A stretch of 64,000 nucleotides of DNA from Citrifermentans bremense (GTDB taxonomy: Bacteria; Desulfobacterota; Desulfuromonadia; Geobacterales; Geobacteraceae), in contig NZ_AP023213.1 of the NCBI RefSeq assembly GCF_014218275.1, positions 248,001-312,000 of the forward strand. Direction: 5' to 3'. The stretch's first letter is position 1. Every line of letters begins with the position of its first letter. Positions 5,456 through 54,666 of the stretch are shown here, in pieces. Both the position numbers and the translations under genes were made by a program. The notes under the pieces were generated by a model. That model searched no databases and had not been told where the DNA came from. It was given only the letters and a program-made list of their open reading frames with translations.

Positions 5456-7006
5456 ATGGAAAAGACAGTTATGACTTTAGGTAAGAGGCTCAAGGTCGGA
5501 TGTGCAGTCGCACTGCTGATGATCATGGCGGTTGGTGCGACGGGGTACTGGCAGATCCAGTCGATGTCGCAGGCGAGCGACTCGATGCTGCACGTCGAGG
5601 GTAAGATTGCCGAAAGTTCCGCACGGCTGAGGGCAGACGTGCTGGGGCTGCGCCGGTACGAGAAGGACACTTTCATCAACATAGGCTCCCCGGAAAAAAC
5701 CAAGGAGTACATGGCTAAATGGCAGGAACAGTTGGGGCACGCTTCGGCAAGGATCTCCGACCTGGAAAAGGTAGTGGTCACCTCGCAGGACAGGGAAATC
5801 GTCAAGTCGATGAAGACCCACCTCGAAACCTACGTAAACGGTTTTAAATCCATCTGCGCCGGATTGGAGGCTGGTAAAATCGCGAGCACCAAGGAGGCAA
5901 ATGCCGCCATCGGGGAATACAAAGACGCCGTCCACGTCCTGGAAACTACGGCTAAGACCTATGCTGAGGATGGTGTGGCGCGCATGGCGCAAAAGGAAAC
6001 GGAACTGGATCGAACCGCTGACCGTGCCGATGCTTTCATCATCTCGCTGGTGCTATCGGCGCTAGCCCTTTTGGTCCTCTCCTTCTACATGCTGATGCGC
6101 AGCCTTGCCGGGCCTGTCGCAGATCTCAGGTCCGCCGCGAGCAATGTCCAGGCCGGCAGCCGTCAGGTTTCCGCCGGTTCGGAGGATCTAAGCGAAGGGG
6201 CAACCGAGCAGGCCGCCGCCGCCGAGGAGGCCTCAAGCAGCATGGAACAGATGAGCGCCAACATACGCAACAACGCCGACAACGCTTCCCAGACCGAGAA
6301 GATGTCCCGGCAGAGCGCCGAGAGCGCCAAAGAGGGGGGCAAGGCGGTCGCTGAAACGGTCGTCGCGATGAGAAAGATCTCCGAGAAAACCTCCATCATC
6401 GGCGAGATTGCCAGGCAGACTAACCTGCTGGCGCTGAACGCCGCCATCGAGGCGGCCCGCGCAGGAGAGCACGGCAAAGGATTCGCAGTAGTTGCCAGCG
6501 AGGTGAGAAAGCTTGCGGAACGGAGCCAGGTAGCGTCGGCCGAAATCGAGGCGCTGTCGACTACCAGCGTACAGGTCGCGGAAAAAGCTGGTGACATGCT
6601 GGCCCGCATCGTCCCCGACATCGAGAAAACAGCTGAACTGGTTCACGAGATAAGCGTGGCATGCCGGGAACAGGACCAGGGTGCGGAGCAGGTGAACCAG
6701 GCCATCCAGCAGTTGGACCAGGTGATCCAGAGAAACGCCATGGCCTCCGAGGAACTGGCCGCGACCTCCGAGGAACTCGCGTCCCAGGCTGAGCAGTTGA
6801 CCGACACCGTCTCCTTCTTCAGCATGAACAGCAACGGCGAGGGTGCAGGTGTCGCAGCATCGGGGATACGGCCTGTTGCGCGCAAAAAAGTAGTGGCCGT
6901 TTCGGGGGACCCGGTTCCCAGGACGAAGAGGCAGCTTACCAAGAGCGGCGCGCTGCCGGGTTACCAATACGAGTTGCAAGACGAGGATGAGTTCGAAAGG
7001 ATGTAG
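5456..7006 (+). CDS. Methyl-accepting chemotaxis protein (4HB sensor)
   Basis: 516 residues from ATG 5456, chosen over an upstream TTG (5441) because AAGGGGGGAG lies just before it. Membrane segment 1 is at about 13-32, a helical four-helix-bundle-type periplasmic domain at about 33-185, membrane segment 2 at about 192-215, then a long coiled-coil signalling domain whose tip contains [18 protein letters not shown]. No canonical HAMP stands out between the second membrane segment and the signalling domain. The tail ([19 protein letters not shown]) is acidic and lacks an NWETF pentapeptide. It receives an extracytoplasmic signal and controls a CheA kinase. A FliA-type promoter lies upstream and a terminator follows. 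Confidence 0.92.
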
Positions 7007-7037
7007 CTAAGAAGCCGCGATTCAATGCGCATATGGC

Positions 7038-7071
7038 GAAGGCCCCCGGAGTTGAACTTCGGGGGCCTTTC
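7038..7071 (+). terminator. Rho-independent terminator
   Basis: GAAGGCCCCCG - loop - CGGGGGCCTTTC hairpin between the MCP gene and the convergent MocR gene. Confidence 0.75.
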
Positions 7072-7170
7072 GCGCGCTAGAGGCCTGCCTCCCCCCCCGT
7101 CCCTCTGACCCCACGATTATCTTCGAAACTGCACCTTTATTTCGGGGCAGATTCGCCGTATCTTTCCAGA

Positions 7171-8562
7171 TCAGGACCATGCCTGTGACAGCAGCTTGAC
7201 GCCCCGGTCTATGTCATCGAGCCGCAACCCGCCAAAACCCAAGATCACCCTGCTGCCGCTGCTGCCTTCGGCAAGGGTGGCCGAATAGGGAAACAGCTCG
7301 ATCCCCCTGCTCCTGGCTCGGGTGATGAGCTCCTTTTCGCTTAGCTCGTGCCCGGAGAGTTCCAGTACCAAGTGCAGCCCCGCACCTTGTCCGAGTACCA
7401 TGGCTTTTGAGCCGAAATGGGTCTCAACCGCCCGCAGCGTGGCATCGTGCTTCTTTTGGTAGAGGGTGCGCATCCGCCGCAAGTGCCGATCCCAGTGCCC
7501 CTGCTCCATGAACTCGGCGAGGGTCTTCTGTTCCAGCAAAGAGACCGAGCAGGCGTAGTCGCGGAAAAGCCGCTGGTAGGAGGAGACCAGCGGGTAAGGC
7601 AGCACCAGGTAGCTGACGCGCAGGGCCGGCGACAGCACCTTGGAGAAGGTGCCGAGGTAGACGATGTTCCCTTCGGGATGCAGCCCCTGTAGAGAAGGGA
7701 TCGGCTTGCCGTGGTAGCGCAACTCGCTGTCGTAGTCGTCCTCGATAACGAAGCGATCCCCTATATTCGCCCATTCGATCAGTCTGAGCCGGTTGGCGAT
7801 GGGCATCACGCACCCGGTCGGGAACTGATGGGAAGGTGTAACGTAGACGAGGGAAGCGCCGCTTGTTTCGAGGGCGTCGAGGTCGAGGCCGCCGGGTCCA
7901 ACTGCTATGGGAACTGTGTCGAAGCCGTGGTTGCCGAAAATGGACCTGGGCAGGTGGAAGCCGGGGTTCTCGAGGGCTACCGCGGGATGCCGCTCTTTCT
8001 GGATCTGCGCGATGATGTCGAGGCTCTGTTGTATTCCGGAACAGACGACGATCTGTTCAGGGTCGCAGGCCACTCCGCGCGAACGCTCCAGGTAGAGCCG
8101 GATGCTGGAACGCAGTCTCCGCTCGCCTTGGGGCTCGCCGTACTGAGCCAGCGCGCCGCGACCCTGGCGCAACGAGTCCAGGAAGCATCTGCGCCATAGC
8201 GATGCGGGAAAGGCGTCCGGGTCGAGCCTCGCGGGGTGGAAGTCGATGTTTCCCTTTGGTTTTGGCTCGGGGAGAGAGGCGCGCCGTCGCATGGCTCGCT
8301 GCGGCGACAAAGGCAGGGCATCCGGCGTGAGCGCGGAAACGAAGTACCCGCTTCGCGGCTTGCTGTATATGTAACCTTCGGCGCAAAGTTCGAGATAGGC
8401 GCCTTCGACGGTGTTGCGGCTGACGGAGAGCTCGGCGGCCAACTCCCGCACCGAGAGGAGCTTCGAGTCCGATGGCAACTTCCCGGAGAGGACGCCTGCT
8501 TTCATCTGCTCATAAAGCTGCCTGTAAAGCGACGGTTTCCCGCGGTGGTCGAGGATGAACAT
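7171..8562 (-). CDS. MocR-family (PdxR/GabR-like) GntR-aminotransferase regulator
   Basis: About 463 residues from the ATG at 8562 (MFILDHRGKPSLYRQLYEQM); the frame is open further upstream but that segment looks non-coding. Residues 1-75 form a GntR winged helix (KLLSVRELAAELSVSRNTVEGAYLEL). The rest is a fold-type I aminotransferase domain with the PLP-lysine context YLGTFSKVLSPALR. Such proteins use PLP as effector and typically control PLP synthesis or amine catabolism. The gene is divergent from an FMN-binding flavoprotein gene of the pyridoxamine-phosphate-oxidase fold, its probable target; two inverted repeats lie between them. Confidence 0.88.
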   Translation of the reverse strand: MFILDHRGKPSLYRQLYEQMKAGVLSGKLPSDSKLLSVRELAAELSVSRNTVEGAYLELCAEGYIYSKPRSGYFVSALTPDALPLSPQRAMRRRASLPEPKPKGNIDFHPARLDPDAFPASLWRRCFLDSLRQGRGALAQYGEPQGERRLRSSIRLYLERSRGVACDPEQIVVCSGIQQSLDIIAQIQKERHPAVALENPGFHLPRSIFGNHGFDTVPIAVGPGGLDLDALETSGASLVYVTPSHQFPTGCVMPIANRLRLIEWANIGDRFVIEDDYDSELRYHGKPIPSLQGLHPEGNIVYLGTFSKVLSPALRVSYLVLPYPLVSSYQRLFRDYACSVSLLEQKTLAEFMEQGHWDRHLRRMRTLYQKKHDATLRAVETHFGSKAMVLGQGAGLHLVLELSGHELSEKELITRARSRGIELFPYSATLAEGSSGSRVILGFGGLRLDDIDRGVKLLSQAWS

Positions 8563-41288: not shown

Positions 41289-42983
41289 ATGGTGAATCCG
41301 GGAGGGCGACACGAAGGGGTAACCAGGGAAGAGTACGCTTCGGCCAACCTGGTCATGATCGCCATGGTGAAGGCCTCCAAAGCGCTCCGGATCTACCTCC
41401 CCAACAACCCGATATTGATCGGTTTCATGGACGATCTGGACGGCAGGATGACCCGGCACCTGGAGTCGTACGGGGAGTTCGTCCTTGATGTCGAGCCGTT
41501 CATCCTGCGCTACAAGGGAAAGGACATCTACCAGAGCCAGGACCCCAAGGAGAGCATGGCCTGCCGCATCCACGCTGACGGCATCAGGACGCTCTTCTTT
41601 CTGCCGGGAATCGAATCGAGAGAGCTGATGGCCTTCCTCGGGGTGGTCGGCTTCGAGCTCAGCACGAGCGACGAGGACGTGGTGACCCAGCTTTGGGAGA
41701 GGGACCTCCCGCATCTGCGCTACCTCCTGGAGGAGGACTTCGTCGAGGGGCACCTGGAGGAGGACCTGACCGAGCCGGGCTCCCAGCAGGCGGCGGTGAC
41801 GAGGGTTTACCAGGCCCTCGCGCAGCAGATCCCCTCCCAGCCGAGGATGATTCCCAAGCACCTGCTCATGCTGACCGGAGAAGAGGAGAAGTGGCTCCGG
41901 AAGGCCCGGCAGGTCGAGGCCCGCAGAAACGGTCTGGATGACGTGATAAATATACTCTCCGCCATCCTCGCCGGTGTGAAGGAGCCGGAGATCTTCTGGG
42001 ATTTCGTCGGCATCATGGGGAACCTCGCCAGCAACATGTTTCTCGCCGGGGAGATCGGGCACGCGCTGCGCCTGATCCGCTTCATGGACCAGTTGATGAA
42101 GCTGGGGAGCACGAAGCCGGAGCAGCGGAAGCTTCTCTCCGACGCGCTGGCCCGGATCCTAGACCTGCAGACGGTGCAGGTATTGCAGGAAACGCTGGAC
42201 GGCAGCGATGCCGTGACACACCAGGACCTGAAGGAACTGCTCCTCATCTTCGGCCTCCCGTCGCTCGGCGCCATCTGCGAGCTCTTGGGACGGGTGGAAA
42301 AGCTCAAGGCGCGCAAGGTGATCATCGAGGTGCTGGTTGAGCTCGGCCGAAAGGATCCAGGCGTGTTCACCCCCTTCCTGGACGATTCGCGCTGGTACCT
42401 CGTGCGCAACGTGGTGCTCGTTCTTTCCCTGGTGGGAACCCCGGTGGCCCTGGAAATGATCATCAGGCTGATTTCCCACAAGGAGGCGAGGATCCGGCGC
42501 GAGGTGCTCGGGTATCTCGAGCGCTCGGGCGATCTGAAGGCGAAGACGTACATCGTGAAGTACCTGCGGGACGACTCCAGCGCCCTTCGCATCAAGGCGC
42601 TCCAGATCCTGGCCCGGGAGAAGCTCCCCTTCGCGCTTAAGCCAGTACTAGCCCTGACCACAGCGGATGAATTCGCAACGAGGTCGATTGCAGAGAAAAA
42701 GGCGGTGTACGAGGCGCTGGGTGAACTGGGGGGGGACGAGATGCTCCCCTTGTTCAGGGACATGCTGCTGAGAAAGTACTGGTTTCAAAAGGCGGCCGAG
42801 AAGGAGTCCGCGCAGCTGGCGGTTGCAGGCCTGCTGCGCATGCAAAGCGGTCAGGCGAAGAAGCTCCTGCAGGAGGCGCGGAATAACAGGCGCTCGGGCG
42901 AGATCAGGGACATCTTGGATCAGGCCCTCGCCGCCTTCGACGCGGTCCGGGGGAAGAGGGGCGCTGGTGCCGTCGAGGTATGA
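41289..42983 (+). CDS. HEAT-repeat protein with an N-terminal module shared with the next gene
   Basis: 564 residues from ATG 41289 (AGAGGAA upstream); ATG 41247 is the alternative. Residues about 15-150 hold a helix plus beta module: helices LVMIAMVKASKALRIYLPNNPILIGF, a strand pair around EPFILRYKGKDIYQ, then FFLPGIESRELMAFLGV. The same layout opens the HD-GYP-like protein downstream. The C-terminal 300 residues are HEAT-like helical repeats (WYLVRNVVLVLSLVGTPVALEMI; RIRREVLGYLERSGD; SALRIKALQILAREKLPF). Probably a cytoplasmic scaffold. The stop overlaps the next start (ATGA). Confidence 0.75.
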   Translation: MVNPGGRHEGVTREEYASANLVMIAMVKASKALRIYLPNNPILIGFMDDLDGRMTRHLESYGEFVLDVEPFILRYKGKDIYQSQDPKESMACRIHADGIRTLFFLPGIESRELMAFLGVVGFELSTSDEDVVTQLWERDLPHLRYLLEEDFVEGHLEEDLTEPGSQQAAVTRVYQALAQQIPSQPRMIPKHLLMLTGEEEKWLRKARQVEARRNGLDDVINILSAILAGVKEPEIFWDFVGIMGNLASNMFLAGEIGHALRLIRFMDQLMKLGSTKPEQRKLLSDALARILDLQTVQVLQETLDGSDAVTHQDLKELLLIFGLPSLGAICELLGRVEKLKARKVIIEVLVELGRKDPGVFTPFLDDSRWYLVRNVVLVLSLVGTPVALEMIIRLISHKEARIRREVLGYLERSGDLKAKTYIVKYLRDDSSALRIKALQILAREKLPFALKPVLALTTADEFATRSIAEKKAVYEALGELGGDEMLPLFRDMLLRKYWFQKAAEKESAQLAVAGLLRMQSGQAKKLLQEARNNRRSGEIRDILDQALAAFDAVRGKRGAGAVEV

Positions 42984-44422
42984 ACATGCAGCTTGAAAAA
43001 GGGCGCGACAGCCTGAACAACGAGATGGCCAGGCTCGGCAAGGCACTGGTCCTGCAGTTCTTCATACTGCTAAAGACCTCCAGCAACTACAGCGAGGGGC
43101 ACGCAGCGCTGGACCTGCCGCTCGCGAACCTGCTGAAGGTGTTGCGGGAGATCACCAGGAGAAACGAGGATGCCTCGCTGAGACTCCGCGGCGGGCACCT
43201 CTACCTTGGCGAGCTGCGGTTGAAACCCGACATCGCCAACTTCGAGGCTCCGCGCCACGTGATAGAGGAGATGAAGCGCCACCTGCTGGGTAGGCTCTCC
43301 TTCATGCCGGAGGTAACGGTCGACGACCTGCGCCGATTCGTGTACGCCCTGCGGGAGGTGGACGCAGCCCAGCTCCCCGACGTTTACACTTCGCTTCTGG
43401 ATGGGATGCAGCAAAGGATGGTGGGGCACATCGAGGTGGAGGTCCTGCGCGATGGCGAGGTGCTGATTCCGGACTCTGTGCGGCTGCAAGAGAACAACCT
43501 CAAGGCCCGCCCCCTTTACAAGAAGGTGCTGGCCGCCATGGACGAGGTGGCGGCGCAGGTGGCGGCAGGGCGGGGCCTGAGACTTAGGGAGTCGAAACGG
43601 GTGGTGCAGCAGATCATCGACCTGCTCTTCAGCCACGAGTCGGACCTGCTCGGGCTTAGCACCATGCGCTCCCACGACCGTTCCTCTCAGCACCATGCGG
43701 CCAATGTCTGCATCCTCTCCCTGGTGATGGGGAAAAGGCTCGGCATGTCAAAGTTCCATCTCTGCGAACTGGGGCTCGCCGCGCTGTTCCACGACCTGGG
43801 AAAAGCCGACGTCCCCAAGGAGATCCTGGACAAGCCGAGCGCGCTAACCCGCGAGGAGCGGCGCATCATGGAGAACCATGTCCTTTACGGCGTGAAGAAG
43901 GTGATGAAGCTGAAGGGGTTCGATGCCCTTTCCTCCCGGATCATCACCGGGATTTTCGAGCACCACCTGCAGGCGGACTTCTCGGGGTATCCGCGCTTTC
44001 CCTACCAGAGGCTGAGCCTGTTCGGCAGGATCATCAACATCGCGGACTGCTACGACGGGCTAACCTCGTCCCGGGTCTGCGGCAGGAACGCCTATCCCCC
44101 CCACAAGGCGCTCAGGGTTATGCTCGCCCAGGCTGGGACGGTCTACGACCAGCCTCTTTTGAAGCTCTTCATCAACTGCGTCGGCATCCATGCCATCGGC
44201 TCCCTGCTGCTTCTGGACAGCAACGAGTTGGCGGTAGTGGTCGGAAACAGCGCAGACCCCACCCAGTGGGACAGCCCGAAGGTGCGCATCATCGCCGACG
44301 CCCAGGGGCACGAGGTAGAGGGGGAGATCATCGACCTGGGCCTTCCCAGCTGCTTCAGGACCATCTCCGCCACCCTCGACCCCTACCTCTATGACCTCGA
44401 CGTGAGCCGCTATTTCTATTAG
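42980..44422 (+). CDS. HD-GYP-like phosphohydrolase domain protein
   Basis: 480 residues; ATG overlaps the HEAT-gene stop by 4 nt. The N-terminal 200 residues repeat the module of the upstream protein (FILLKTSSNYSEGHAALDLPLANLL; LRGGHLYLGELRL; FMPEVTVDDLRRFVYAL). The HD domain follows: HHAANVCILSLVMG, ALFHDLGKADVP with the HD pair, EERRIMENHVLYG, and FEHHLQADFSGYPRF, a shortened variant of HHExxDGxGYP. It may hydrolyse cyclic di-GMP or have lost activity; the E and D of HHExxDG are replaced. The C-terminal part ends in a small beta domain. Confidence 0.82.
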   Translation: MNMQLEKGRDSLNNEMARLGKALVLQFFILLKTSSNYSEGHAALDLPLANLLKVLREITRRNEDASLRLRGGHLYLGELRLKPDIANFEAPRHVIEEMKRHLLGRLSFMPEVTVDDLRRFVYALREVDAAQLPDVYTSLLDGMQQRMVGHIEVEVLRDGEVLIPDSVRLQENNLKARPLYKKVLAAMDEVAAQVAAGRGLRLRESKRVVQQIIDLLFSHESDLLGLSTMRSHDRSSQHHAANVCILSLVMGKRLGMSKFHLCELGLAALFHDLGKADVPKEILDKPSALTREERRIMENHVLYGVKKVMKLKGFDALSSRIITGIFEHHLQADFSGYPRFPYQRLSLFGRIINIADCYDGLTSSRVCGRNAYPPHKALRVMLAQAGTVYDQPLLKLFINCVGIHAIGSLLLLDSNELAVVVGNSADPTQWDSPKVRIIADAQGHEVEGEIIDLGLPSCFRTISATLDPYLYDLDVSRYFY

Positions 44423-45368: not shown

Positions 45369-45398
45369 TTGCCCAAAAAAATCCGCCCGGCGTATAAT
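45369..45398 (+). promoter_or_regulatory. Second promoter-like element of the prkA operon
   Basis: TTGCCC (45369-45374), 18 bp, TATAAT (45393-45398), 62 nt before the start codon. Confidence 0.45.
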
Positions 45399-45460: not shown

Positions 45461-47512
45461 ATGACAGCGAAGAACGAAACGCTCCGTCAACACCTGGCCG
45501 CCGTCAAGGCGGGAGAAAGGGTCTTTGAGAACGCCTTCCAGGGGATCATCCGGATGATCCTGGAGCCGGGTTTCGAAAAGGTGGTCGTCAATGGCAAGAC
45601 GACCTACGACTTCAACATATTCAGGACCGGCCGCAAGCACACCATCGGGATGTACGACGAGATCAACAGTTTCGTCTCCTTCGTCAAAGATGCGGCCGAG
45701 GGTGGGTCCAGCAAGGAGATGGCCTTCGTCCTGGTGGGCGAGCCGGGTAACGGCAAGACCTTCTTCGTGGAGTTCCTGTGCAGCAAGTACCGCAACTTCC
45801 TCCAAGGGAAGAACCGCAAATACAGCTTCAGGTTCCTAAACATGGACCGGCTTGGCAACTACGGCAGGATCCGGGAGATCGACTCCGAGACCTACGAGGA
45901 TCCAATGATCCTCGCGATGAACCTCTTCGAGGACCTGGACGAAGGGCGCCGCTTCATCGCGGAACAAGGTTTCTCCGACGCCGAGCTGGACACGCTCTAC
46001 CGGAACTACCGGCCGCTTGGCGCTAGCTCCGGCTATATCCTGAACGAGATCCGGAACTACCTCGACAACGACGTTGAAAAGATCCTGGAGAGCATCGCCA
46101 TCACGCCGGTGCCGATGAGCGAGAGCCTGGGCACCCTCACCGGGAAGTACCCGGCAAAGGACAAGATCACCTCGTCCGCGGTGGATCTGCTGGGGGAAGA
46201 ATCGATTCAGAGGCTATTGCACCTCTCCGACACCAACAACCCGTACCGCTTCGACCTGCGCCGCGGGGCGCTGGCTCGCGTGGCCGGGGGGGGGATCCAT
46301 TTCAGCGATGAGATCTTCAAGAACAAGAAGGACCTGGTGCAGGTGTACCTGGGCGTAATCCAGAACCGCGCCATTGAGATCGACGGCTACAAGTGGCCGA
46401 TCGACTCCATGATCATCGCCACCAGCAACAACTCCGAGTTCAACCGGTTCCTGGCAGAGAAGGAAGAGGCGCCGATCGTCGACCGCTGCAGGATCTGCTA
46501 CGTCTCGCACAACACCAACTACCGCATGCAGGAAGGGCTCACGAGCTACGCCATCGGCAGCGACTCCAAGACCACCCTGACCCGGGAGCTTTTGCACCAG
46601 GACCCAAACCTCAACTACGCAGCGTCCGTCGGCGTCGTGCTGACCAGGCTTCCCAGAAGCGAGAAGCTCACCCCGATCGAGACCATGAAACTCGCAGCCG
46701 GCGAGGTCGCCGGCGAGAAGAGCATCAAGGCGCTCGCCGAGGTGATCGACACGCTGGGGCAGGAGCCGGACATCACCAAGCGCTTCGGGCAGCGGGGGCT
46801 CGGGCACAGGAGTCTCGGGCGCAGCATCCAGATCCTAAAGGAGAGTTCCGAGACCAACGAGGGGCGCTGCATGGTGGCCTACGATGTCTTCAGGAGCCTG
46901 GAGCGGGTGGTGCTCGACTACGTGGTGGAGCCCAATGAACGGGCGAAGTACCTGGAGGACCTGAAGACCGGCAAGCAGCTCTACCGCGAGCGGATCATGA
47001 CCGAAATGTTCAACGCCTACATGGACGAGCCTTTCGCCATCAAGAAGGACGTGCAGAACTACGTCAACATGATCATCGGGATCGACGCCGAGAACCTGGG
47101 GCCGGACCGGATGTGGAAGTACAAGGATCCCCAGACCGGCGAGCTGAAGGCTCTGAAGATAGATGAACGCTACGTGAAGAGCGTCGAGGAGCGGATAGGG
47201 CTGAAGACCGAGGAGCAGCGCGCCTCGTTCAGGACCTCGATCCGCAAGATCTACGGACAGAAGATCTCCGTCGACCCGAGCTACGACTTCATGGACAACC
47301 TGGAGCTGGTGAAGGCGGTAACCGACGTGCGGCTGAAATCGGACATAGCCGGCGCGGGGAGCCTGATCGGCGCCCTGGCCAACCGGACCAACGAAGAGAA
47401 CCAGAAGCTCTACGACCGGATGATCGTCACCATGCTCGGCAAGCTTGGCTACTGCCGCACCTGTGCCCAGAAGACCATCGAGTACTTCTGCACCCAGGAA
47501 GACGAGAGCTAA
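45461..47512 (+). CDS. prkA: PrkA-family serine protein kinase (YeaG-like)
   Basis: 683 residues (YeaG is 644). AAA+-type N-terminal domain with Walker A GEPGNGKT at 93-100; the PrkA C-terminal domain, distantly kinase-like, follows. FLNMDRLGNYGRIREIDSETYEDPMILAMNLFED, GIHFSDEIFKNKKDLVQVYLG and DSMIIATSNNSEFNRFL are diagnostic. PrkA proteins phosphorylate a few protein substrates under nutrient stress and stationary phase; in E. coli YeaG works with YeaH. First gene of a four-gene operon with DUF444, SpoVR and a second PrkA-like protein. Confidence 0.92.
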   Translation: MTAKNETLRQHLAAVKAGERVFENAFQGIIRMILEPGFEKVVVNGKTTYDFNIFRTGRKHTIGMYDEINSFVSFVKDAAEGGSSKEMAFVLVGEPGNGKTFFVEFLCSKYRNFLQGKNRKYSFRFLNMDRLGNYGRIREIDSETYEDPMILAMNLFEDLDEGRRFIAEQGFSDAELDTLYRNYRPLGASSGYILNEIRNYLDNDVEKILESIAITPVPMSESLGTLTGKYPAKDKITSSAVDLLGEESIQRLLHLSDTNNPYRFDLRRGALARVAGGGIHFSDEIFKNKKDLVQVYLGVIQNRAIEIDGYKWPIDSMIIATSNNSEFNRFLAEKEEAPIVDRCRICYVSHNTNYRMQEGLTSYAIGSDSKTTLTRELLHQDPNLNYAASVGVVLTRLPRSEKLTPIETMKLAAGEVAGEKSIKALAEVIDTLGQEPDITKRFGQRGLGHRSLGRSIQILKESSETNEGRCMVAYDVFRSLERVVLDYVVEPNERAKYLEDLKTGKQLYRERIMTEMFNAYMDEPFAIKKDVQNYVNMIIGIDAENLGPDRMWKYKDPQTGELKALKIDERYVKSVEERIGLKTEEQRASFRTSIRKIYGQKISVDPSYDFMDNLELVKAVTDVRLKSDIAGAGSLIGALANRTNEENQKLYDRMIVTMLGKLGYCRTCAQKTIEYFCTQEDES

Positions 47513-47517
47513 CGGCA

Positions 47518-47537
47518 GGGACTAGGGACTAGGGACT
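47518..47537 (+). repeat. GGGACTA heptamer repeat
   Basis: Nearly three copies of GGGACTA in the prkA-DUF444 gap; too short to interpret. Confidence 0.6.
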
Positions 47538-47610
47538 GAAGCTAGCGGGCTGACGGCGGACAGGGGCAAGAAAGGGACCTGTCCACCGTAGCCTGATAAG
47601 GCGAAGGCGG

Positions 47611-48972
47611 ATGAAAGATCTGGAAAAATACCTGGAAGAACTGAAGGAGAAGGGTCTGGACCCCGAGCGGTACGCCCGCTTTCGCGACGAGCTGGCGGTG
47701 ACCCGCGGCGTCCCCACGACCGACCGGAGCGGTCCTTTCCCCAACTTCTCCAAGAGCATCTACTCCTGGCAGGACCTGGCCGTGCTGCAGGACCAGGGGA
47801 GGGTCCCCAACCCGTACCAGTGCCACATGAAGGCGCTGGACGAGCTACTGGAACGGGACCGGCAGAGGGAGAAGGATGGCTTCCCCAGGAAGATCAGGGT
47901 CGGAAGGCTGATCAAGCCGGGGAAAGGCGGGAAGGGAAAGATCGTGGTGGTCCCCTCCACCGAAGAGGAGAAGTTCCTGCACGACCCGACCATCCGCCCT
48001 CCCGGAGAGGGGGGCTCCACGGGTGGGAGCGGCAAGGGTGACGAAGGGGAGGTCATCGGCGAACAGAAGGTGCGTGAGACCGGCGAGGAGCCGGGGCAGG
48101 GCCCGGGCCAGGGAGAAGGGGAAGCGCACGAGATGGGGGCTTCCGCCTACGAGCTGGGCAAGGTGCTGACCGAACAGTTCCAGCTCCCCAACCTGAAGGA
48201 AAAAGGGAAGAAGCGCTCCTTCACCCGCTACATTTACGACCTCACGGACCGCAACCGCGGCTCCGGACAGGTGCTGGACAAGAAGGCGACCCTGAGGAAG
48301 ATCGTGGAGACCAACATCTCCCTTGGCAACGTGCCGGACCCCGGCGATATGGACCCCACCCGCTTCCTGATCTCGCCGCGCGACAAGGTGTACCGCATCT
48401 TCTCGCAGGAAAAGGATTACGAGCCGCAGGCGATGGTCTTTTTCCTGCGAGACTACTCCGGTTCCATGGCCGGCAAAGTGACCGAGCTGGTCGCGACCCA
48501 GCACGTTATGATCTACAGCTGGCTTTTGTACCAGTACGCGGGGCAGGTGGAATCCCGCTTCATCCTGCACGACACCGAGGCGAAAGAAGTCCCCGATTTC
48601 GACACCTACTACAACTCCCGGGTCGCCGGGGGGACCGAGGTGGCGAGCGCCTACAAGCTCGTCAACGAGATCGTGGCCAAGGAGAACCTCGCCGCCGACT
48701 ACAACATCTACGTCTTCCACGGCACTGACGGCGACGACTGGGACACCGGCGGCGACAAGTCGATCCCCGAGCTGGTGAAGATCCTTTCCTACGTGAGTCG
48801 CATGGGGGTGACCATCGCCGAGCACGCGGGAACTCAGTGGACCGAGGTGGCGCGCTACCTGGAGAACTCGGGACTTCTGCGCGACAAGCCTGACCTGTTG
48901 CGGCTGGACGTGATGAACGAGGACGCCGAGGAATCGCGGGTGATCGAGGGGATCAAGAAGCTCATCTCTTAG
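47611..48972 (+). CDS. DUF444 (YeaH-like) protein with von Willebrand A-like domain
   Basis: 453 residues (E. coli YeaH 427). A Gly-rich charged linker (GGSTGGSGKGDEGEVIG, residues ~130-150) separates a basic N-terminus from the conserved domain. D281-Y-S-G-S-M in FFLRDYSGSMAGKV is a MIDAS-type DxSxS motif, as in vWA domains. The gene almost always sits next to prkA. Partner of PrkA; exact chemistry unknown. Confidence 0.9.
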   Translation: MKDLEKYLEELKEKGLDPERYARFRDELAVTRGVPTTDRSGPFPNFSKSIYSWQDLAVLQDQGRVPNPYQCHMKALDELLERDRQREKDGFPRKIRVGRLIKPGKGGKGKIVVVPSTEEEKFLHDPTIRPPGEGGSTGGSGKGDEGEVIGEQKVRETGEEPGQGPGQGEGEAHEMGASAYELGKVLTEQFQLPNLKEKGKKRSFTRYIYDLTDRNRGSGQVLDKKATLRKIVETNISLGNVPDPGDMDPTRFLISPRDKVYRIFSQEKDYEPQAMVFFLRDYSGSMAGKVTELVATQHVMIYSWLLYQYAGQVESRFILHDTEAKEVPDFDTYYNSRVAGGTEVASAYKLVNEIVAKENLAADYNIYVFHGTDGDDWDTGGDKSIPELVKILSYVSRMGVTIAEHAGTQWTEVARYLENSGLLRDKPDLLRLDVMNEDAEESRVIEGIKKLIS

Positions 48973-49003
48973 AGGCAGAGGTGGAGCAGATTAAGGGGTG
49001 AAG

Positions 49004-49085
49004 CAGATTAAGATTAAGAGGTGAGGCAGATTGAGAGGTGAAGCAGGGTTTACTTAATCTTAATCTGGGTCTCCTCTTAATCTGG
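49004..49085 (+). repeat. Long intergenic hairpin with an alternative partner
   Basis: CAGATTAAGATTAAG (49004-49018) is perfectly complementary to 49053-49067. The overlapping segment AGATTAAGAGG (49011-49021) can instead pair with 49074-49084. Several GAAGCAGATTAAG-like units make up the gap just before spoVR. Confidence 0.75.
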
Positions 49086-49101
49086 TTTTTTAGAGGCTTT
49101 T

Positions 49102-50727
49102 ATGGAACTGATCAACCAACATACCAAAGAGATCATGGAAGGGTGCAAGGAGCGGGCGCGCGCCGCTGGGCTCTCCTTCACCGACGAGAGCCTCGAATAC
49201 ATCGTGACCAACCGCGACCTGATCGAGCTCTCCCCCAAGGTCATGATCCCGACCCTTTACGACTACTGGGTGCACGACGTCGAGGTGCTCCGGGGAAAAG
49301 GGGAGTACGAACTCTACCCGCACAACCCCTACGAGACGGTGATCAACACCCGTCCCCCGATCTCGTTCTACAACGACAATAACCCCGACTGGCTCAACGT
49401 GATGATCTTCTACCACGTGCTTGGCCACATCGATTTCTTCCAGAACAACCTTTATTTCCGCCACACCTGGGAGTACGACTTCACCGGGCAGGCGCTTTCG
49501 GACAAGAGGGTGATCGCCAAGCTGCGCGCCGAGAAGGGGCGCTGGGTGGATTACATCCTCGAGTTCGCCCGCTCCATCGACAACCTGGTCGCCTACCACG
49601 ACGAGCTGTCGCCGCTCTTCAAGTCCCCCGACACCGCCACCTCGAGCCGGCTTGACTACTACTTCGACGTCTTCCTGCAGGTGGAGAAAAAGCTGCCGGT
49701 GGCCGAGTACCTGAAGGAGGTGGCGCGGTACAACGAGGCGGTCCTCCAGGACAAGGAGGAAGGGGAGCGGATCTTCTTCGCCGAGGTTACGGCCAAGTAC
49801 CCGGAAATGGAGGCGCATTTCGCCAAGAGCCGGAGTGTGAAGAGGATCGAGCGGCGCGACCTGCTCCGTTTCCTGATCGAGAACTCGGAGTTCCTGGCCC
49901 GCGACGAGAACAGCTGGATGCGCTCGGTGCTCGAGGTGGTGAGAAAGACCTCCATCTTCTTCCAGCCCCAGATCCGCACCAAGATCATGAACGAGGGGTG
50001 GGCGAGCTACTGGCACGAGAAGCTCTTCCTCGTGGACGACCGCATCAAGGGGCACGAGGTCGACTTCGCCCGTGTGCACGCCGGCGTCACCTCAATGCCC
50101 CGGGTCGGGATGAACCCGTACGCGCTCGGCATGCGACTCATGTACCAGTTGAAGGAGATTGGGGACAAGGGGAAGACCGGGTACGACTTCCACCGCCTCT
50201 CCGACGCCAACCAGAGGAAGGAGTTCGATGCCGGGACCGGGCAGGGCGACGAGTTCCTGTTCAAGGTCAGAAGCAACTACTGCGACTACCTCTTCATCAA
50301 GGAATTCGTGGACCAGGATTTCACCAACCGCTATGACCTCTTCGTCACCGGCAAGAGGCTAGACCCGCAGCGCATGGTCTGGCAGTACTACGTGAAGAGC
50401 CGGGACGCGCGCGAGTACCGCGACATGGTGCTTGCTTCGCTGTACCACCCGCCGCACATCGAGATCGCCCCGGAGCGGGGCGAGGACGGCGCACTCTACC
50501 TCGTGCACCACTTCGAGGGGAAACAACTGGTATCGGAGTACATCGCCAACACCATGGTGGGTATAGAGTACCTCTGGGGGGCGCCGGTACAGCTTGAAAC
50601 GAGCGAGGCCGTGATCGAACAGACCCGCGGCACCGCCGGCAAGGAGGGTGGTGAGGAGGCGGAGATCACATGGCAGCGCGTGGTCTACACCATGAAGGAA
50701 AAGACACTGAGCCGGCAGGTACTGTGA
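49102..50727 (+). CDS. SpoVR family protein (YcgB-like)
   Basis: 541 residues (E. coli YcgB 510). DPTLYDYWVHDVEVLRGKGEYELYPHNPYETVINTRPPISFYNDNNPDWLN, and further on WASYWHEKLF, match the family. Named after B. subtilis SpoVR, a spore-cortex protein, but widespread in non-sporulating bacteria beside prkA and DUF444. Biochemistry unknown. RBS is weak (AGAGG, 9 nt before the ATG) and lies 3' of the intergenic hairpins, so translation may depend on RNA folding. Confidence 0.92.
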   Translation: MELINQHTKEIMEGCKERARAAGLSFTDESLEYIVTNRDLIELSPKVMIPTLYDYWVHDVEVLRGKGEYELYPHNPYETVINTRPPISFYNDNNPDWLNVMIFYHVLGHIDFFQNNLYFRHTWEYDFTGQALSDKRVIAKLRAEKGRWVDYILEFARSIDNLVAYHDELSPLFKSPDTATSSRLDYYFDVFLQVEKKLPVAEYLKEVARYNEAVLQDKEEGERIFFAEVTAKYPEMEAHFAKSRSVKRIERRDLLRFLIENSEFLARDENSWMRSVLEVVRKTSIFFQPQIRTKIMNEGWASYWHEKLFLVDDRIKGHEVDFARVHAGVTSMPRVGMNPYALGMRLMYQLKEIGDKGKTGYDFHRLSDANQRKEFDAGTGQGDEFLFKVRSNYCDYLFIKEFVDQDFTNRYDLFVTGKRLDPQRMVWQYYVKSRDAREYRDMVLASLYHPPHIEIAPERGEDGALYLVHHFEGKQLVSEYIANTMVGIEYLWGAPVQLETSEAVIEQTRGTAGKEGGEEAEITWQRVVYTMKEKTLSRQVL

Positions 50728-50742
50728 CAGGCGGATAAGCTC

Positions 50743-53031
50743 ATGCCAGATCTAGAGACAGTCATAAAGCAGTTGAGCCGCACCATCGTGGAGCACAAGA
50801 ACGCGGCGCACATGTCCTTCGAGGAGTTCATGCAGCTCGCAACCGAGCAGCCTGAGAGGGTGATGCGCAACATCTTCCAGCTCTTCCACGACATGGTGAA
50901 GAACTACGTGAGCGAAGGGACCGACGAGTATCCGGAGGACCCCGAGTCGATCAACTTCGTCCCTTACGACACCCGCAAGCTCTTCGTGGAGAACTCGGAC
51001 CGCCCCTTCTTCGCGGACCGCCTGTTCGCCAACCGCTTCATCAACCACGTGGCCGCCATGAAGAGCGGCGCCCGGCAGAACAAGATCTACATCTTCGAGG
51101 GGCCCCCGGGTTCCGGCAAAAGCACCTTCTTGAACAACATCCTGATGAAGTTCGAGGAGTACGCGAGCACCGAGCAGGGGACCTGCTACGAGGTGGTGTG
51201 GCACCTGGACCGCCGCGTGCTGGGGAGCTTCAAGGAGCACCAGGTGAGCGCCTTCGTCGAGAAGCTCTCCCACCTCCTGGACGAGTACGAGCTGGAGACG
51301 CACGAGCATATCGACACCCGGGCCCTTCTGCGCGGCGGCGACGTGGTAGAGGTTCCCTGCCCGTCGCACGACTCGCCGATCCTCATGATCGACAAGGCGC
51401 AGCGCAGGGCGTTTTTCGACGACCTGTTCCAGAACGATTCCTTCAAGTGGAAGCTCTTCACCGAGAAGGAATACGACTGGGTCTTCCGCGATTCCCCCTG
51501 CACCATCTGCACCTCCATCTTCCAGGCGCTTTCGGCGAGGCTCGAGGACCCCGCAGACCTCTTCCGCATGATCAAGGTCCGTCCCTACCGCTTCAACCGC
51601 AGGCTCGGGGAGGGGATCACCGTATTCAACCCCGGCGACAAGTCGATGAAGCAGAACATCCTCACCAACGACATGCTGCAGAGGAAGATCGACCTCCTGC
51701 TGGGCGACAGCAACGAGGTGAAGTACATCTTCTCCAACTTCGCCAAGACCAACAACGGGATCTACGCGCTTATGGACGTGAAGTCGCATAACGCCGAGCG
51801 CCTTTTGGAACTGCACAACATCATCAGCGAGGGGATCCACAAGGTCGAGGACATCGAGGAGAACGTGAGGAGCCTCTTCATCGCCCTGATGAACCCCGAG
51901 GACGAGCGGAGCATCGAGGGGGTTCAGTCCTTCTCGGACCGCATCGAGTTCATCAACATCCCCTACGTCATGGACCTGAACACGGAGGTGGAGATCTACC
52001 GCAACATCTTCGGCAAGCACATCGACGCGAGCTTCCTCCCCCGGGTGCTGCACAACTTCGCGCGGGTCATCATCTCGACCCGGATGAACGTGAAATCCGA
52101 TGCTCTTTTGGAATGGATCGGCGACCCCGAGAAGTACCGGTTCTACTGCGACGAGAACCTGCAGATCCTGAAGATGGAGATCTACACCGGGCACATCCCC
52201 GAGTGGCTCACCGAAGAGGACAGAAAGCGGCTCACCGCCAAGAGGCGTAAGAAAATCATCGCCGAGAGCGAGCACGAGGGGGACCACGGCTTCTCCGGGC
52301 GCGAGTCGATCAAGATCTTCTCCGACTTCTACGCCGCCTACGCCAGGAAGGACAAGATGATCACCATGAGCCACCTTTCCACTTTCTTCACCAGGTGGCA
52401 CAAGGAGCTCAAGGAATCTATCCCGGAAGGTTTCATGGAGTCGCTGGTGCACAACTACGACTACGTGGTGCTCCAGGAGGTGAAGGAGGCTCTCTATTAC
52501 TACAACGAGTCCCAGATCGAGCGCGACATCCTGCACTACATGTTCGCCGTCAACTTCGAGCCCGGCGCCGTCGAGGTCTGCCGCTTCACGGGCGAGAAAC
52601 TGGAGATAACCGAGGATTTTCTGGCAGGAATCGAGAGGCGGCTGATAGGGCCCAAGGCCGAGGACGAGGCGCGGCTTTCCTTCCGGCAGGAGACCCAGAG
52701 GGAGTACACCGGCCGCACCCTGACCCAGGAAATCATGGTGGAAGGGAAGCGCGCCCAGGATACCGCATTGTTCCAGTCGCTGCACGACCGCTACGTCTTC
52801 AACCTGAAGGAAAAGGTGCTGGAGCCGTTCCTGGAGAACGCGAACTTCCGGCGTGCCATCAAGGATTTCGACACCGACGCCTTCAAGACCTACGACAAGA
52901 GGATCCGGGACGACGTCACTTTCCTGATCAACAACCTCAGTTCCGTGAAGTTCAAGTACACCAAGCAATTCGCCAAAGAGATCTGCGTCTACGTCATAGA
53001 CAACGACCTCGCCCGCAAGTTCCATGTGTAA
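50743..53031 (+). CDS. Second, divergent PrkA-like serine protein kinase
   Basis: 762 residues. Walker A is GPPGSGKS at 120-127. MFEDL-type segments of standard PrkA are replaced, but RLEDPADLFRMIKVRPYRFNRRLGEGITVFNPGDKS and SFSDRIEFINIPYVMDLNTEVEIYRNIFG belong to the PrkA AAA domain, and the C-terminal kinase-like part continues to the end. Sequence similarity to the first PrkA is low, so this is an old duplication or a separate subfamily that travels with SpoVR. It starts 15 nt after spoVR. Confidence 0.85.
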   Translation: MPDLETVIKQLSRTIVEHKNAAHMSFEEFMQLATEQPERVMRNIFQLFHDMVKNYVSEGTDEYPEDPESINFVPYDTRKLFVENSDRPFFADRLFANRFINHVAAMKSGARQNKIYIFEGPPGSGKSTFLNNILMKFEEYASTEQGTCYEVVWHLDRRVLGSFKEHQVSAFVEKLSHLLDEYELETHEHIDTRALLRGGDVVEVPCPSHDSPILMIDKAQRRAFFDDLFQNDSFKWKLFTEKEYDWVFRDSPCTICTSIFQALSARLEDPADLFRMIKVRPYRFNRRLGEGITVFNPGDKSMKQNILTNDMLQRKIDLLLGDSNEVKYIFSNFAKTNNGIYALMDVKSHNAERLLELHNIISEGIHKVEDIEENVRSLFIALMNPEDERSIEGVQSFSDRIEFINIPYVMDLNTEVEIYRNIFGKHIDASFLPRVLHNFARVIISTRMNVKSDALLEWIGDPEKYRFYCDENLQILKMEIYTGHIPEWLTEEDRKRLTAKRRKKIIAESEHEGDHGFSGRESIKIFSDFYAAYARKDKMITMSHLSTFFTRWHKELKESIPEGFMESLVHNYDYVVLQEVKEALYYYNESQIERDILHYMFAVNFEPGAVEVCRFTGEKLEITEDFLAGIERRLIGPKAEDEARLSFRQETQREYTGRTLTQEIMVEGKRAQDTALFQSLHDRYVFNLKEKVLEPFLENANFRRAIKDFDTDAFKTYDKRIRDDVTFLINNLSSVKFKYTKQFAKEICVYVIDNDLARKFHV

Positions 53032-53033
53032 AC

Positions 53034-53065
53034 CAATTGACAGTTGACAATGGATAATTGACAAC
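53034..53065. repeat. 32-nt TTGTCAA-type element, copy 2 (inverted)
   Basis: Heptamer array on the minus strand, 28 of 32 positions identical to the reverse complement of the copy at 53181. Confidence 0.75.
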
Positions 53066-53081: not shown

Positions 53082-53127
53082 CAAAGGGGGATGACCGCGA
53101 ACCTGACTGCAGCGGCATCCCCCTTTG
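53082..53127. terminator. Rho-independent terminator between convergent genes
   Basis: CAAAGGGGGATG ... CATCCCCCTTTG with an inner CCGC/GCGG, between the second prkA-like gene and the MCP gene. Confidence 0.8.
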
Positions 53128-53180
53128 TCTTTGCTCCCGAAGCCATTTAGAATCAATGCACGTCGCGGCTTCGGCTTTTC

Positions 53181-53215: not shown

Positions 53216-54397
53216 TTAGACGGTTTTGAACCGGTTCACCATCTCCTGGAGGGTGCGCGCCGAGGCGGCCAACTCCGCGGCGGCGCGGGCCGAATTCCTC
53301 GCTCCGCTTGCAGCCTCCTCCACCACCCCGATTATGTCCCTCATGCTGCCGGTGATGTTTGACGTTGTCGCCGACTGCTCTTCCGCCGCAGTCGCGACTT
53401 GCGCCACGTACTCCAGAAGCGGGTTTATCTGCTCCTTGATGGTCCCTATGGCGCGGCTGGAATGCTGCACGTCCTCGGTCCCGCTTCTGACGCTGTCGGC
53501 GCTCCGTTCCATGAGCCCCACCACGTTCTTCACGTCTCCTTGCAGGCTCTGGATGATAGTCTGCACCTCTTGGGTCGAGGCGGTGGTTCTTTCTGCGAGC
53601 CTTCTCACCTCGTCGGCCACCACCGCAAAGCCGCGTCCCTGCTCCCCGGCGCGTGCCGCTTCGATGGCGGCATTGAGCGCCAGCAGGTTAGTCTGGTCAG
53701 CGATGTCCTCGATGGCCACCACGATGTCGCCGATCTTATCGGAGTTGGCCCCCAGGGCCTTGACCGCGTCCACTGTGCCGATCACCATCCGCTCGATCTC
53801 CCCCATCACTGCGGTCATCCGGACGATGGTCTCCTCTCCCCTGCTCGTGGCGCTGTTGGTGCTGCCGGCGCGATCCGCCATCTGCTGGCAGCTTAAGGCT
53901 ATGTCGTTGCTCACCCCCGCCATCTCGACCACCGCACAGGAGACGGAATTGGATTGCCGCGAGGCGTGCTCGGTTCCTTGCGCCATCTGCTGCGAAGTGG
54001 AACTCAACTCGGAAGACGCCAGGGTGAGGTGGTCGGCGGTCTGCTTGATGCCGGCGATCATCCCCCGCATCGACTCCTGGAGTTTCTTCACCGCGTGCAG
54101 CATCTGGCTGATCTCGTTATGGCGGTTCACCACGATCTGCTCGCTCAGATCCCCTTGTGCCATGGTCTCTAGGTAATCGACGGTTCTGGCGAGTGGAGTC
54201 CTGATGGACCAGATGTTGATCCAGCCGAACAGCCCCCCCAGGGCAATGAAGAGGGTGACGGAGCCGAACTTGATCACCGGCGAGTCCGCCTGCGCCGCGA
54301 CCGCGGACGCAATGAGGCAGAGGCTGTAGCAGATGCATAAAAGGCTCAGCCTGAATTTGATGGTGAGGTCGAGGTAATAGTTCCAGATCTGGTTCAT
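53216..54397 (-). CDS. Methyl-accepting chemotaxis protein, short type
   Basis: 393 residues from ATG 54397, chosen for the AAGGAG 6 nt upstream; the frame opens further upstream. Two membrane segments near FRLSLLCICYSLCLIASAVA and VIKFGSVTLFIALGGLFGWIN are almost adjacent, so there is hardly any periplasmic domain. A HAMP-like piece (RTPLARTVDYLETMAQGDLS) and a signalling domain with [21 protein letters not shown] follow. Without a ligand domain it may sense membrane state or work with a partner. The FliA-type promoter is 71 nt upstream. Confidence 0.9.
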   Translation of the reverse strand: MNQIWNYYLDLTIKFRLSLLCICYSLCLIASAVAAQADSPVIKFGSVTLFIALGGLFGWINIWSIRTPLARTVDYLETMAQGDLSEQIVVNRHNEISQMLHAVKKLQESMRGMIAGIKQTADHLTLASSELSSTSQQMAQGTEHASRQSNSVSCAVVEMAGVSNDIALSCQQMADRAGSTNSATSRGEETIVRMTAVMGEIERMVIGTVDAVKALGANSDKIGDIVVAIEDIADQTNLLALNAAIEAARAGEQGRGFAVVADEVRRLAERTTASTQEVQTIIQSLQGDVKNVVGLMERSADSVRSGTEDVQHSSRAIGTIKEQINPLLEYVAQVATAAEEQSATTSNITGSMRDIIGVVEEAASGARNSARAAAELAASARTLQEMVNRFKTV

Positions 54398-54467
54398 GCC
54401 TTTCTCCTTGCCGGTGGTGCGCCAACGTGTAAACAGTGCTGCGAACGATGTTTTGTTACCTTCTGAC

Positions 54468-54494
54468 TTATCGGGGGGCGACGGCAAAACTTGA
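54468..54494 (-). promoter_or_regulatory. Sigma-28 (FliA)-type promoter of the third MCP gene
   Basis: Minus strand: TCAAGTTT (54494-54487), 11 bp, CCCGATAA (54475-54468); two mismatches from the consensus overall. Confidence 0.7.
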
Positions 54495-54666
54495 CGGGTC
54501 ACGTGAGCAAAAGGCGGCGGATTGGTGGAAAATAATCTGCATTCGAGGCGTGTCGGCAGCAGTTTTAGCCGTGGGAGGAAACAGGGAAAAGTTTGCGTCC
54601 TGGCGCCTGCAAAACATGGTATTCTTGAGCGCCGTCAGCCAAGTGAAGAATTTAAGGAGGGTGCAA

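Follow-up and report, generated by a model that had tools for sequence, protein, structure and literature searches.

A run of four genes on one strand of the Citrifermentans bremense genome encodes two PrkA-type proteins on either side of a DUF444 protein and a SpoVR family protein, and the differences between the two PrkA proteins may reflect a division of labour within a single machine. The genes lie in a stretch of 64,000 nucleotides (contig NZ_AP023213.1, positions 248,001–312,000, forward strand; hereafter the window, whose numbering is used throughout), and their products are designated, in order, PrkA1, DUF444, SpoVR and PrkA2. What we observe are the four families, the joint presence or absence of both PrkA proteins, the fixed gene order, the intact Walker A, sensor and arginine residues in both PrkA proteins, a glutamate/aspartate difference between them at Walker B, and the intact metal ion-dependent adhesion site (MIDAS) of DUF444 and signature of SpoVR. 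On this basis we favour, tentatively and with somewhat less than even confidence, a remodelling machine composed of AAA+ (ATPases associated with diverse cellular activities) and von Willebrand factor A (vWA) proteins, in which SpoVR would be the client or effector and PrkA2 a partner of PrkA1 with impaired hydrolysis. The PrkA-DUF444-SpoVR set is widespread and linked to stress, with no agreed biochemical function, and the "kinase" label of PrkA is disputed (PMC4664914 versus PMC13001217). By having two PrkA proteins, of which one is without the Walker-B glutamate in 113/113 sequences, this natural variant separates the ATPase roles by evolution; the interest of the unit is that it makes the question "kinase or AAA+ machine?" experimentally testable.

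The run of prkA, DUF444 and spoVR genes plus a fourth gene, for a protein of 762 residues, had been proposed in a sequence-only reading of the window, and it was found at 45461–53031, with all four genes on the + strand and intergenic gaps of 98, 129 and 15 bp, in order. Both PrkA proteins exceed the curated cut-offs (25 bits) of Pfam families PF06798 (PrkA1, 130.4 bits; PrkA2, 173.0) and PF08298 (49.6 and 39.9, respectively), and they are the two matches to PF06798 in the host genome. Likewise, the DUF444 protein matches PF04285 (118.8 bits, cut-off 27) and clearly belongs to NCBIfam PRK05325.2-4 (806.9 bits, cut-off 421), and SpoVR matches PF04293 (208.4 bits, cut-off 27). The four products are 91–97% identical to their counterparts from Geomonas oryzae and G. 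azotofigens (L107, L108). The similarity between PrkA1 and PrkA2 is limited to scraps (best BLASTP E of 0.003, across 45 residues), in agreement with the earlier description of the fourth protein as one that keeps the AAA domain and is weakly similar to the first. That description, which called only the second PrkA divergent, needs one correction, since the same is true of PrkA1: with the YeaG equivalog model (NCBIfam PRK15455, cut-off 576 bits) PrkA1 obtains 42.9 bits and PrkA2 17.5, so that neither qualifies, and the full-length identity of PrkA1 with YeaG is 23%. The structure of a canonical PrkA of 692 aa, deposited as "Serine protein kinase", is available in three PDB entries (9xip, 9xiq and 9xir; 30 chains); it matches Thermomicrobium PrkA with an E of 2.8e-171 and is absent from the match list of PrkA1; PrkA2 matches the 9xip sequence with an E of 3e-18, and 9xip is not among the matches listed in fold searches with the SpoVR and PrkA1 models.

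Motor residues were compared in 77 sequences of PrkA1 and 116 of PrkA2. These sets include many close relatives (at least two genomes stand under two locus identifiers: L109 = L028 and L097 = L031), and the residues were counted again after removal of near-copies at 90% identity (Table 1). The Walker-A lysine, the sensor-1 asparagine, the putative arginine-finger arginine and the sensor-2 arginine are invariant in PrkA1 and in PrkA2 wherever they could be read. With its Walker-B Asp-Glu, the AAA+ set is complete in PrkA1, whereas PrkA2 keeps the other motifs and lacks the Walker-B glutamate. In an ungapped profile alignment made with hhalign, Glu284 of PrkA1 and Asp345 of PrkA2 both stand opposite Glu263 of YeaG. 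Additionally, PrkA2 contains the two halves of a zinc-site-like motif, CPSH and CTIC, and this set of cysteines and histidine is missing from the PrkA1 consensus; canonical PrkA proteins show zinc-site-like residues as CPxC (14/15) and CPxxExP (11/15), and YeaG has neither. A match to the Pfam model AAA_5 reached 23.5 bits (cut-off 22) and was confined to Walker A. AlphaFold2 models were of moderate confidence (pLDDT of 65.2 for PrkA1 and 75.5 for SpoVR), and Foldseek found no match with E ≤ 0.001 for either of them.

The two PrkA proteins are distributed as a pair. Of 58 relatives, 38 encode PrkA2; PrkA1 occurs in exactly these 38, and the remaining 20 have neither. Since genera g15 and g16 each mix species having both proteins with species having neither, we can also infer that the pair is gained or lost jointly. 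In a sample of 247 genomes from the window's phylum, PF06798 was matched in 34, which were typed by score, spacing and later typing (PrkA1 of G216 by score and spacing only): 16 contain the window-type pair, three a pair of a third type described below (G075, G226 and G283), 12 a single canonical PrkA and two a couple of canonical PrkA genes, with one genome below the cut-off. Wherever a window-type PrkA1 or PrkA2 occurred in this sample the other one did too (16/16 genomes), and in 14 of the 16 the two C-terminal domains are 5.2–5.8 kb apart on the same strand. The genes are 40 kb apart in G273 (L079/L080), with no SpoVR seen in the two stretches read.

Gene order is also conserved well beyond the close relatives. 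A scan of genome contigs with PrkA2, in which presences are what can be interpreted, yielded at least 594 stretches and at least 60 confirmed PrkA2 loci, with record titles mostly deltaproteobacterial. Other titles among the matches listed were Bacteroidetes, Bacteroidales, Flavobacteriales, Cytophagales, Ignavibacteriales, Fibrobacter, Aminicenantes, Chloroflexi, Riflebacteria and Niyogibacteria, mostly of metagenome-assembled genomes, whose taxon labels can be wrong. Among the matches listed, which come from several phyla, the order PrkA1-DUF444-SpoVR-PrkA2 was found in 41/42 loci with at least 5.8 kb of upstream sequence, and SpoVR immediately precedes PrkA2 in 56/57 loci with at least 1 kb upstream. 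The exception to the order, L148, contains PrkA2 alone, with a PrkA1-type gene on another contig of that genome (1232 bits). In a sample of 198 genomes from the phylum to which L148 belongs, seven match PF06798, six of them above the cut-off; five of these six have the pair, and the sixth has one canonical-like PrkA, accompanied by a DUF444 and a SpoVR of its own. Together, the joint presence or absence of the PrkA genes and the conserved order tie the four families to one another, in support of this part of the sequence-only reading.

A few genomes depart from the usual layout. The unit of G170 is split over two places of one contig (L081, L082), with PrkA2 cut near the contig end, from either a rearrangement or a wrong assembly, and a short PrkA piece is found elsewhere in this genome. 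In L078, SpoVR is in two pieces (6889–7866 and 7903–8562, − strand) within an otherwise intact unit; the gene is either disrupted or wrongly sequenced. A doubling of another kind is seen in G094 and G297, each with two canonical PrkA genes located on different contigs. We also considered that plasmids might carry the unit and dropped the idea: tblastn against plasmid sequences found no match for PrkA2 or for the second PrkA of the third type, and only four remote records for PrkA1 (21–23% identity).

A quick tree of 57 sequences (16 PrkA1, 17 PrkA2, 17 canonical PrkA and three in each of the third-type sets) set off each PrkA class by one branch, with SH-aLRT values of 97–100; its deep branch order is not to be trusted, given a long-branch warning. 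From this separation we conclude that PrkA1 and PrkA2 are distinct lineages and not recent copies. The distances within both proteins are strongly correlated across 40 loci (Mantel r of 0.887, with 0/999 permutations as high). Mean identity over the same loci is highest in PrkA1 (72%), followed by SpoVR (59%), DUF444 (57%) and PrkA2 (53%), so the constraints on the two PrkA proteins differ. This difference, together with the large distance between PrkA1 and PrkA2, which form one long-branched group each, and the sufficiency of one canonical PrkA in 12 of the 34 positive genomes of the phylum sample, would fit an arrangement in which PrkA1 and PrkA2 each build a homo-oligomeric AAA+ machine of their own, with DUF444 and SpoVR in common but with different partners or different steps of action. 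We consider such an arrangement unlikely, although a serious candidate, because a division of labour within one machine accounts more simply for the joint presence and absence and for the Glu/Asp split. The fast divergence of PrkA2 (53% against 57–72% for the other three proteins) and its missing Walker-B glutamate might also be those of a scaffold or a remnant paralogue with no distinct role, retained through linkage; however, its Walker A, sensor and arginine residues are invariant in more than 110 sequences, and it is retained with PrkA1 40 kb away (L079/L080) or on a separate contig (L148), which leaves this explanation with hardly any probability.

The motif DYSGSM that had been noticed in the DUF444 protein is indeed in the sequence, and residues D281, S283, S285, T342 and D373 of the MIDAS are conserved in 85/85 sequences (75/75 nonredundant) and invariant in eight divergent DUF444 proteins, YeaH included. 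When aligned to the vWA domain of ViaA, the DxSGS and GGT motifs fall in register, with a low probability of 2.2%, which is above the 0.04–0.2% of five reversed or unrelated controls. In SpoVR, residues H105, H109, N297, E298, G299, W300 and A301 are invariant in 11 divergent members, including YcgB, which has one additional residue between the two histidines, and the third type; H305 is not invariant, being replaced by glutamate in the third type. Judging from the conservation of its residues, the HxxxH...NEGWA signature is a candidate metal site.

MoxR-type AAA+ proteins with VWA partners are described to assist metal insertion, as the pair NorQ/NorD does (PMC13036017), and the unit might encode a chaperone in which the two ATPases and DUF444, with its MIDAS, load metal into SpoVR at H105, H109 and E298, as the invariance of H105, H109 and N297–A301 in very divergent SpoVR proteins could suggest. 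We regard this as quite improbable: metal binding by SpoVR is a prediction, its HVLGH motif lacks the glutamate of the peptidase motif HExxH, and searches with the SpoVR model retrieved no zincin-like match, the VIA list containing no zincin row and covering mainly the C-terminal part (best Z of 5.8), with the zone of the candidate site hardly covered.

The sequence-only reading saw in PrkA1 and PrkA2 two kinases that target each other or work serially; such serine kinases would phosphorylate one another or act, one after the other, on DUF444 and SpoVR. The family name and the Pfam description of PrkA are in line with this, and so are the in vitro kinase activity stated for recombinant YeaG and the failure of its K426A mutant to complement (PMC4664914), the Hanks-type kinase motifs in the C-terminal part of Bacillus anthracis PrkA (PMC13001217), and the lysine that PrkA2 from the window has at the position of K426. 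Nevertheless, lysine is not a family constant at that position, where it occurs in only 10/15 canonical PrkA proteins, in 33/52 PrkA2 and in 0/29 PrkA1, all of which have arginine (29/29). Complementation by YeaG is likewise abolished by K116A, which changes the Walker-A lysine, by R232A and by truncation (PMC4664914). Purified B. anthracis PrkA is reported to have no detectable kinase or protease activity and no detectable autophosphorylation, and to miss the kinase P-loop; oligomers upon ATP addition are reported as well, and so are sporulation and osmotic phenotypes (PMC13001217). Considering as well the invariant AAA+ residues of both PrkA proteins, the idea of two kinases is not supported and seems to us very improbable. 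A complementary split of K426 and R232 between PrkA1 and PrkA2 was discarded, neither residue being constant in canonical PrkA (10/15 and 3/15, respectively).

In the machine that we favour, PrkA1 would be the hydrolysing AAA+ subunit and PrkA2 an obligate second subunit, in the same ring or stack, that binds nucleotide and hydrolyses it poorly. DUF444 would act as a MIDAS adaptor joining the motor to its client, and SpoVR, with its candidate metal site, would be that client or an effector; upon starvation or stress, the motor might remodel or mature SpoVR, or the target of SpoVR. The help with metal insertion given by MoxR-type proteins and their VWA partners (PMC13036017), together with the similar phenotypes of yeaG and yeaH deletions and the failure of the Walker-A mutant K116A to complement (PMC4664914), speaks for such a motor and adaptor. 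Support for the machine is strong at the level of the genes, and its biochemistry, from the PrkA1-PrkA2 heteromer and the impaired hydrolysis by PrkA2 to the roles of DUF444 as adaptor and SpoVR as client, is what we infer. The stress trigger would be carried over, by analogy, from yeaGH and from prkA of other bacteria: mutants in yeaG and yeaH of E. coli behave alike after nitrogen starvation (PMC4664914), and prkA of Rhizobium etli is strongly dependent on ppGpp, with expression more than 27-fold lower in an rsh mutant (PMC3188799). The R. etli study also reports no defect of growth across 384 nitrogen sources.

Several observations weigh against this machine. Impaired hydrolysis by PrkA2 is a prediction, and aspartate in place of glutamate can leave activity; the interaction of PrkA1 with PrkA2, the difference in ATPase activity and the identity of the client are likewise presumed. 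A five-class MAFFT alignment places Asp283 of PrkA1 at the canonical glutamate, with Glu284 in an insert, but under either alignment a glutamate follows the aspartate in PrkA1 and no such glutamate exists in PrkA2. Kinship of PrkA1 with MoxR proteins is not established, since its match to RavA is at Walker A only, with a score under that of the ABC-ATPase control RbsA; a model assigns PrkA to AAA+ clade III and not to MoxR kin (PMC13001217). Similarly, in VIA the PrkA1 model ties CbbQ (Z of 9.3), ClpA (9.2), the proteasome (9.2) and NorQ (8.9), that is, AAA+ proteins generally, and the SpoVR model has no significant fold match in either Foldseek or VIA. Finally, matching distances between PrkA1 and PrkA2 (Mantel r of 0.89) are expected of any genes inherited jointly.

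Two PrkA genes in one cluster have a precedent in haloarchaea, where a comparison of ten genomes in 2011 reported a pair of neighbouring prkA genes, accompanied in every case by genes for DUF444 and SpoVR (PMC3102087). Compared by gene content and order only, the haloarchaeal cluster resembles the unit in combining a PrkA pair with DUF444 and SpoVR, and differs in that its prkA genes are adjacent instead of bracketing the other two. The unit is therefore less surprising than first thought. The condition that the sequence-only reading set against itself, a second PrkA that is common, standard and previously characterised, applies by half: the protein is a regular component of this unit, and the haloarchaeal cluster is published, but we found no characterisation of this second PrkA; the literature searched, largely without subscription papers and partly in incomplete text, contained no description of a second PrkA outside haloarchaea or of the Walker-B difference.

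Systems with one PrkA share three of the four families. The prkA-vWA-spoVR genes of R. etli, stated to form one operon by reverse transcription PCR (RT-PCR) reported without data (PMC3188799), and PrkA-YhbH-SpoVR of Thermomicrobium roseum follow the same order as the unit, but have one canonical PrkA with no second PrkA beside it. In E. coli the same three families are found with yeaG and yeaH together and ycgB at a separate place, as was rightly stated in the sequence-only reading; apart from the low identity of YeaG to PrkA1, it differs from the unit in the position of ycgB, in that the match of YeaG to PrkA2 covers a third of the length, and in the absence of a second PrkA from the two stretches read. 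The MoxR AAA+/VWA pairs NorQ/NorD, RavA/ViaA and CbbQ/CbbO also combine an AAA+ gene with a neighbouring MIDAS vWA gene, but the similarity seen between PrkA1 and RavA is confined to Walker A, PrkA has a C-terminal domain of its own and the unit contains two ATPases. Canonical PrkA genes were additionally seen in 16 phage records (H65–H79 range), 11 of them from Thermus phages, and a Ralstonia jumbo phage is reported to have SpoVR and PrkA genes (PMC8504454).

The third four-gene type (L083–L085), from the window's phylum, shows the same PrkA-DUF444-SpoVR-PrkA order and also has the aspartate in its second PrkA. It differs in its near-canonical first PrkA and its shorter DUF444 (355–363 aa), and its second PrkA is long (832–863 aa). 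At Walker B, glutamate is found in the first PrkA (3/3) and aspartate in the second (3/3), with two of the three genomes nearly identical. The profile of this second PrkA matches canonical PrkA with an E of 5e-25 and PrkA2 with an E of 3e-16 (7e-21 with a larger set); it is thus about as near to canonical PrkA as to PrkA2, the tree carries a long-branch warning, and we rejected its grouping with PrkA2 in one lineage in spite of shared C-terminal features. A wider scenario, which we consider possible but rather doubtful, is that of an obligately paired AAA+ system, in which the hydrolysing and the Walker-B-Asp forms of PrkA would have parted long ago, the second working only with the first in MIDAS-coupled hetero-oligomers. 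This split would occur in at least two architectures, the window type and the third type, and the four-gene block of the window type would have travelled through Desulfobacterota, Bacteroidota and other phyla, perhaps to or from haloarchaea.

Table 1. Genes, conserved motifs and a putative promoter of the PrkA1-DUF444-SpoVR-PrkA2 unit, in window coordinates.
Feature	Position	Strand	Basis or conservation
Putative promoter-like site TTGCCC-18-TATAAT, 5′ of PrkA1	45369–45398	+	Scan; match count not above chance
PrkA1 (683 aa), AAA+ protein with PrkA C-terminal domain	45461–47512	+	Open reading frame (ORF), Pfam
PrkA1 Walker A GEPGNGKT (residues 93–100)	45737–45760	+	K99 75/75; 61/61 nonredundant
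PrkA1 Walker B GGIHFSDE (residues 277–284)	46289–46312	+	Asp283, Glu284 76/76; 61/61 nonredundant
DUF444 protein (453 aa), vWA-like with MIDAS	47611–48972	+	ORF, Pfam, NCBIfam
DUF444 MIDAS DYSGS (residues 281–285)	48451–48465	+	Thr342 at 48634–48636, Asp373 at 48727–48729
SpoVR family protein (541 aa)	49102–50727	+	ORF, Pfam
SpoVR HVLGH (H105, H109), first half of candidate metal site	49414–49428	+	104/104; 85/85 nonredundant
SpoVR NEGWASYWH (residues 297–305), second half of candidate metal site	49990–50016	+	E298 105/105
PrkA2 (762 aa), divergent PrkA-type AAA+ protein	50743–53031	+	ORF, Pfam
PrkA2 Walker A GPPGSGKS (residues 120–127)	51100–51123	+	K126 115/115; 86/86 nonredundant
PrkA2 CPSH (C206, H209), half of zinc-site-like motif	51358–51369	+	C 115/115, H 112/115
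PrkA2 CTIC (C253, C256), other half of zinc-site-like motif	51499–51510	+	Both 115/115
PrkA2 Asp345 at canonical Walker-B Glu position	51775–51777	+	Asp 113/113; 86/86 nonredundant

The putative promoter preceding PrkA1 was one of two promoter-like sites in the searched stretch, where 1.7 were expected by chance, the other being at 53125–53153, beyond PrkA2; a similar −10 element was found at the PrkA1 site in 4/5 aligned relatives, with L020 as the exception. A scan for terminator-like sites on the + strand gave none within the unit. A sigma-54 promoter for the unit was considered and dropped: with up to two mismatches to the consensus, the window contained 11 matches, fewer than the 15.2 expected, and none between 41172 and 50132, hence none upstream of PrkA1. 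An open frame of 770 aa runs antisense to nearly the whole of PrkA2 (50752–53064, − strand) and is, at a guess, a shadow of codon usage. The unit is flanked upstream by a gene for an HD-domain protein (42980–44422, + strand) and downstream, on the opposite strand, by one for a methyl-accepting chemotaxis protein (53216–54502, − strand).

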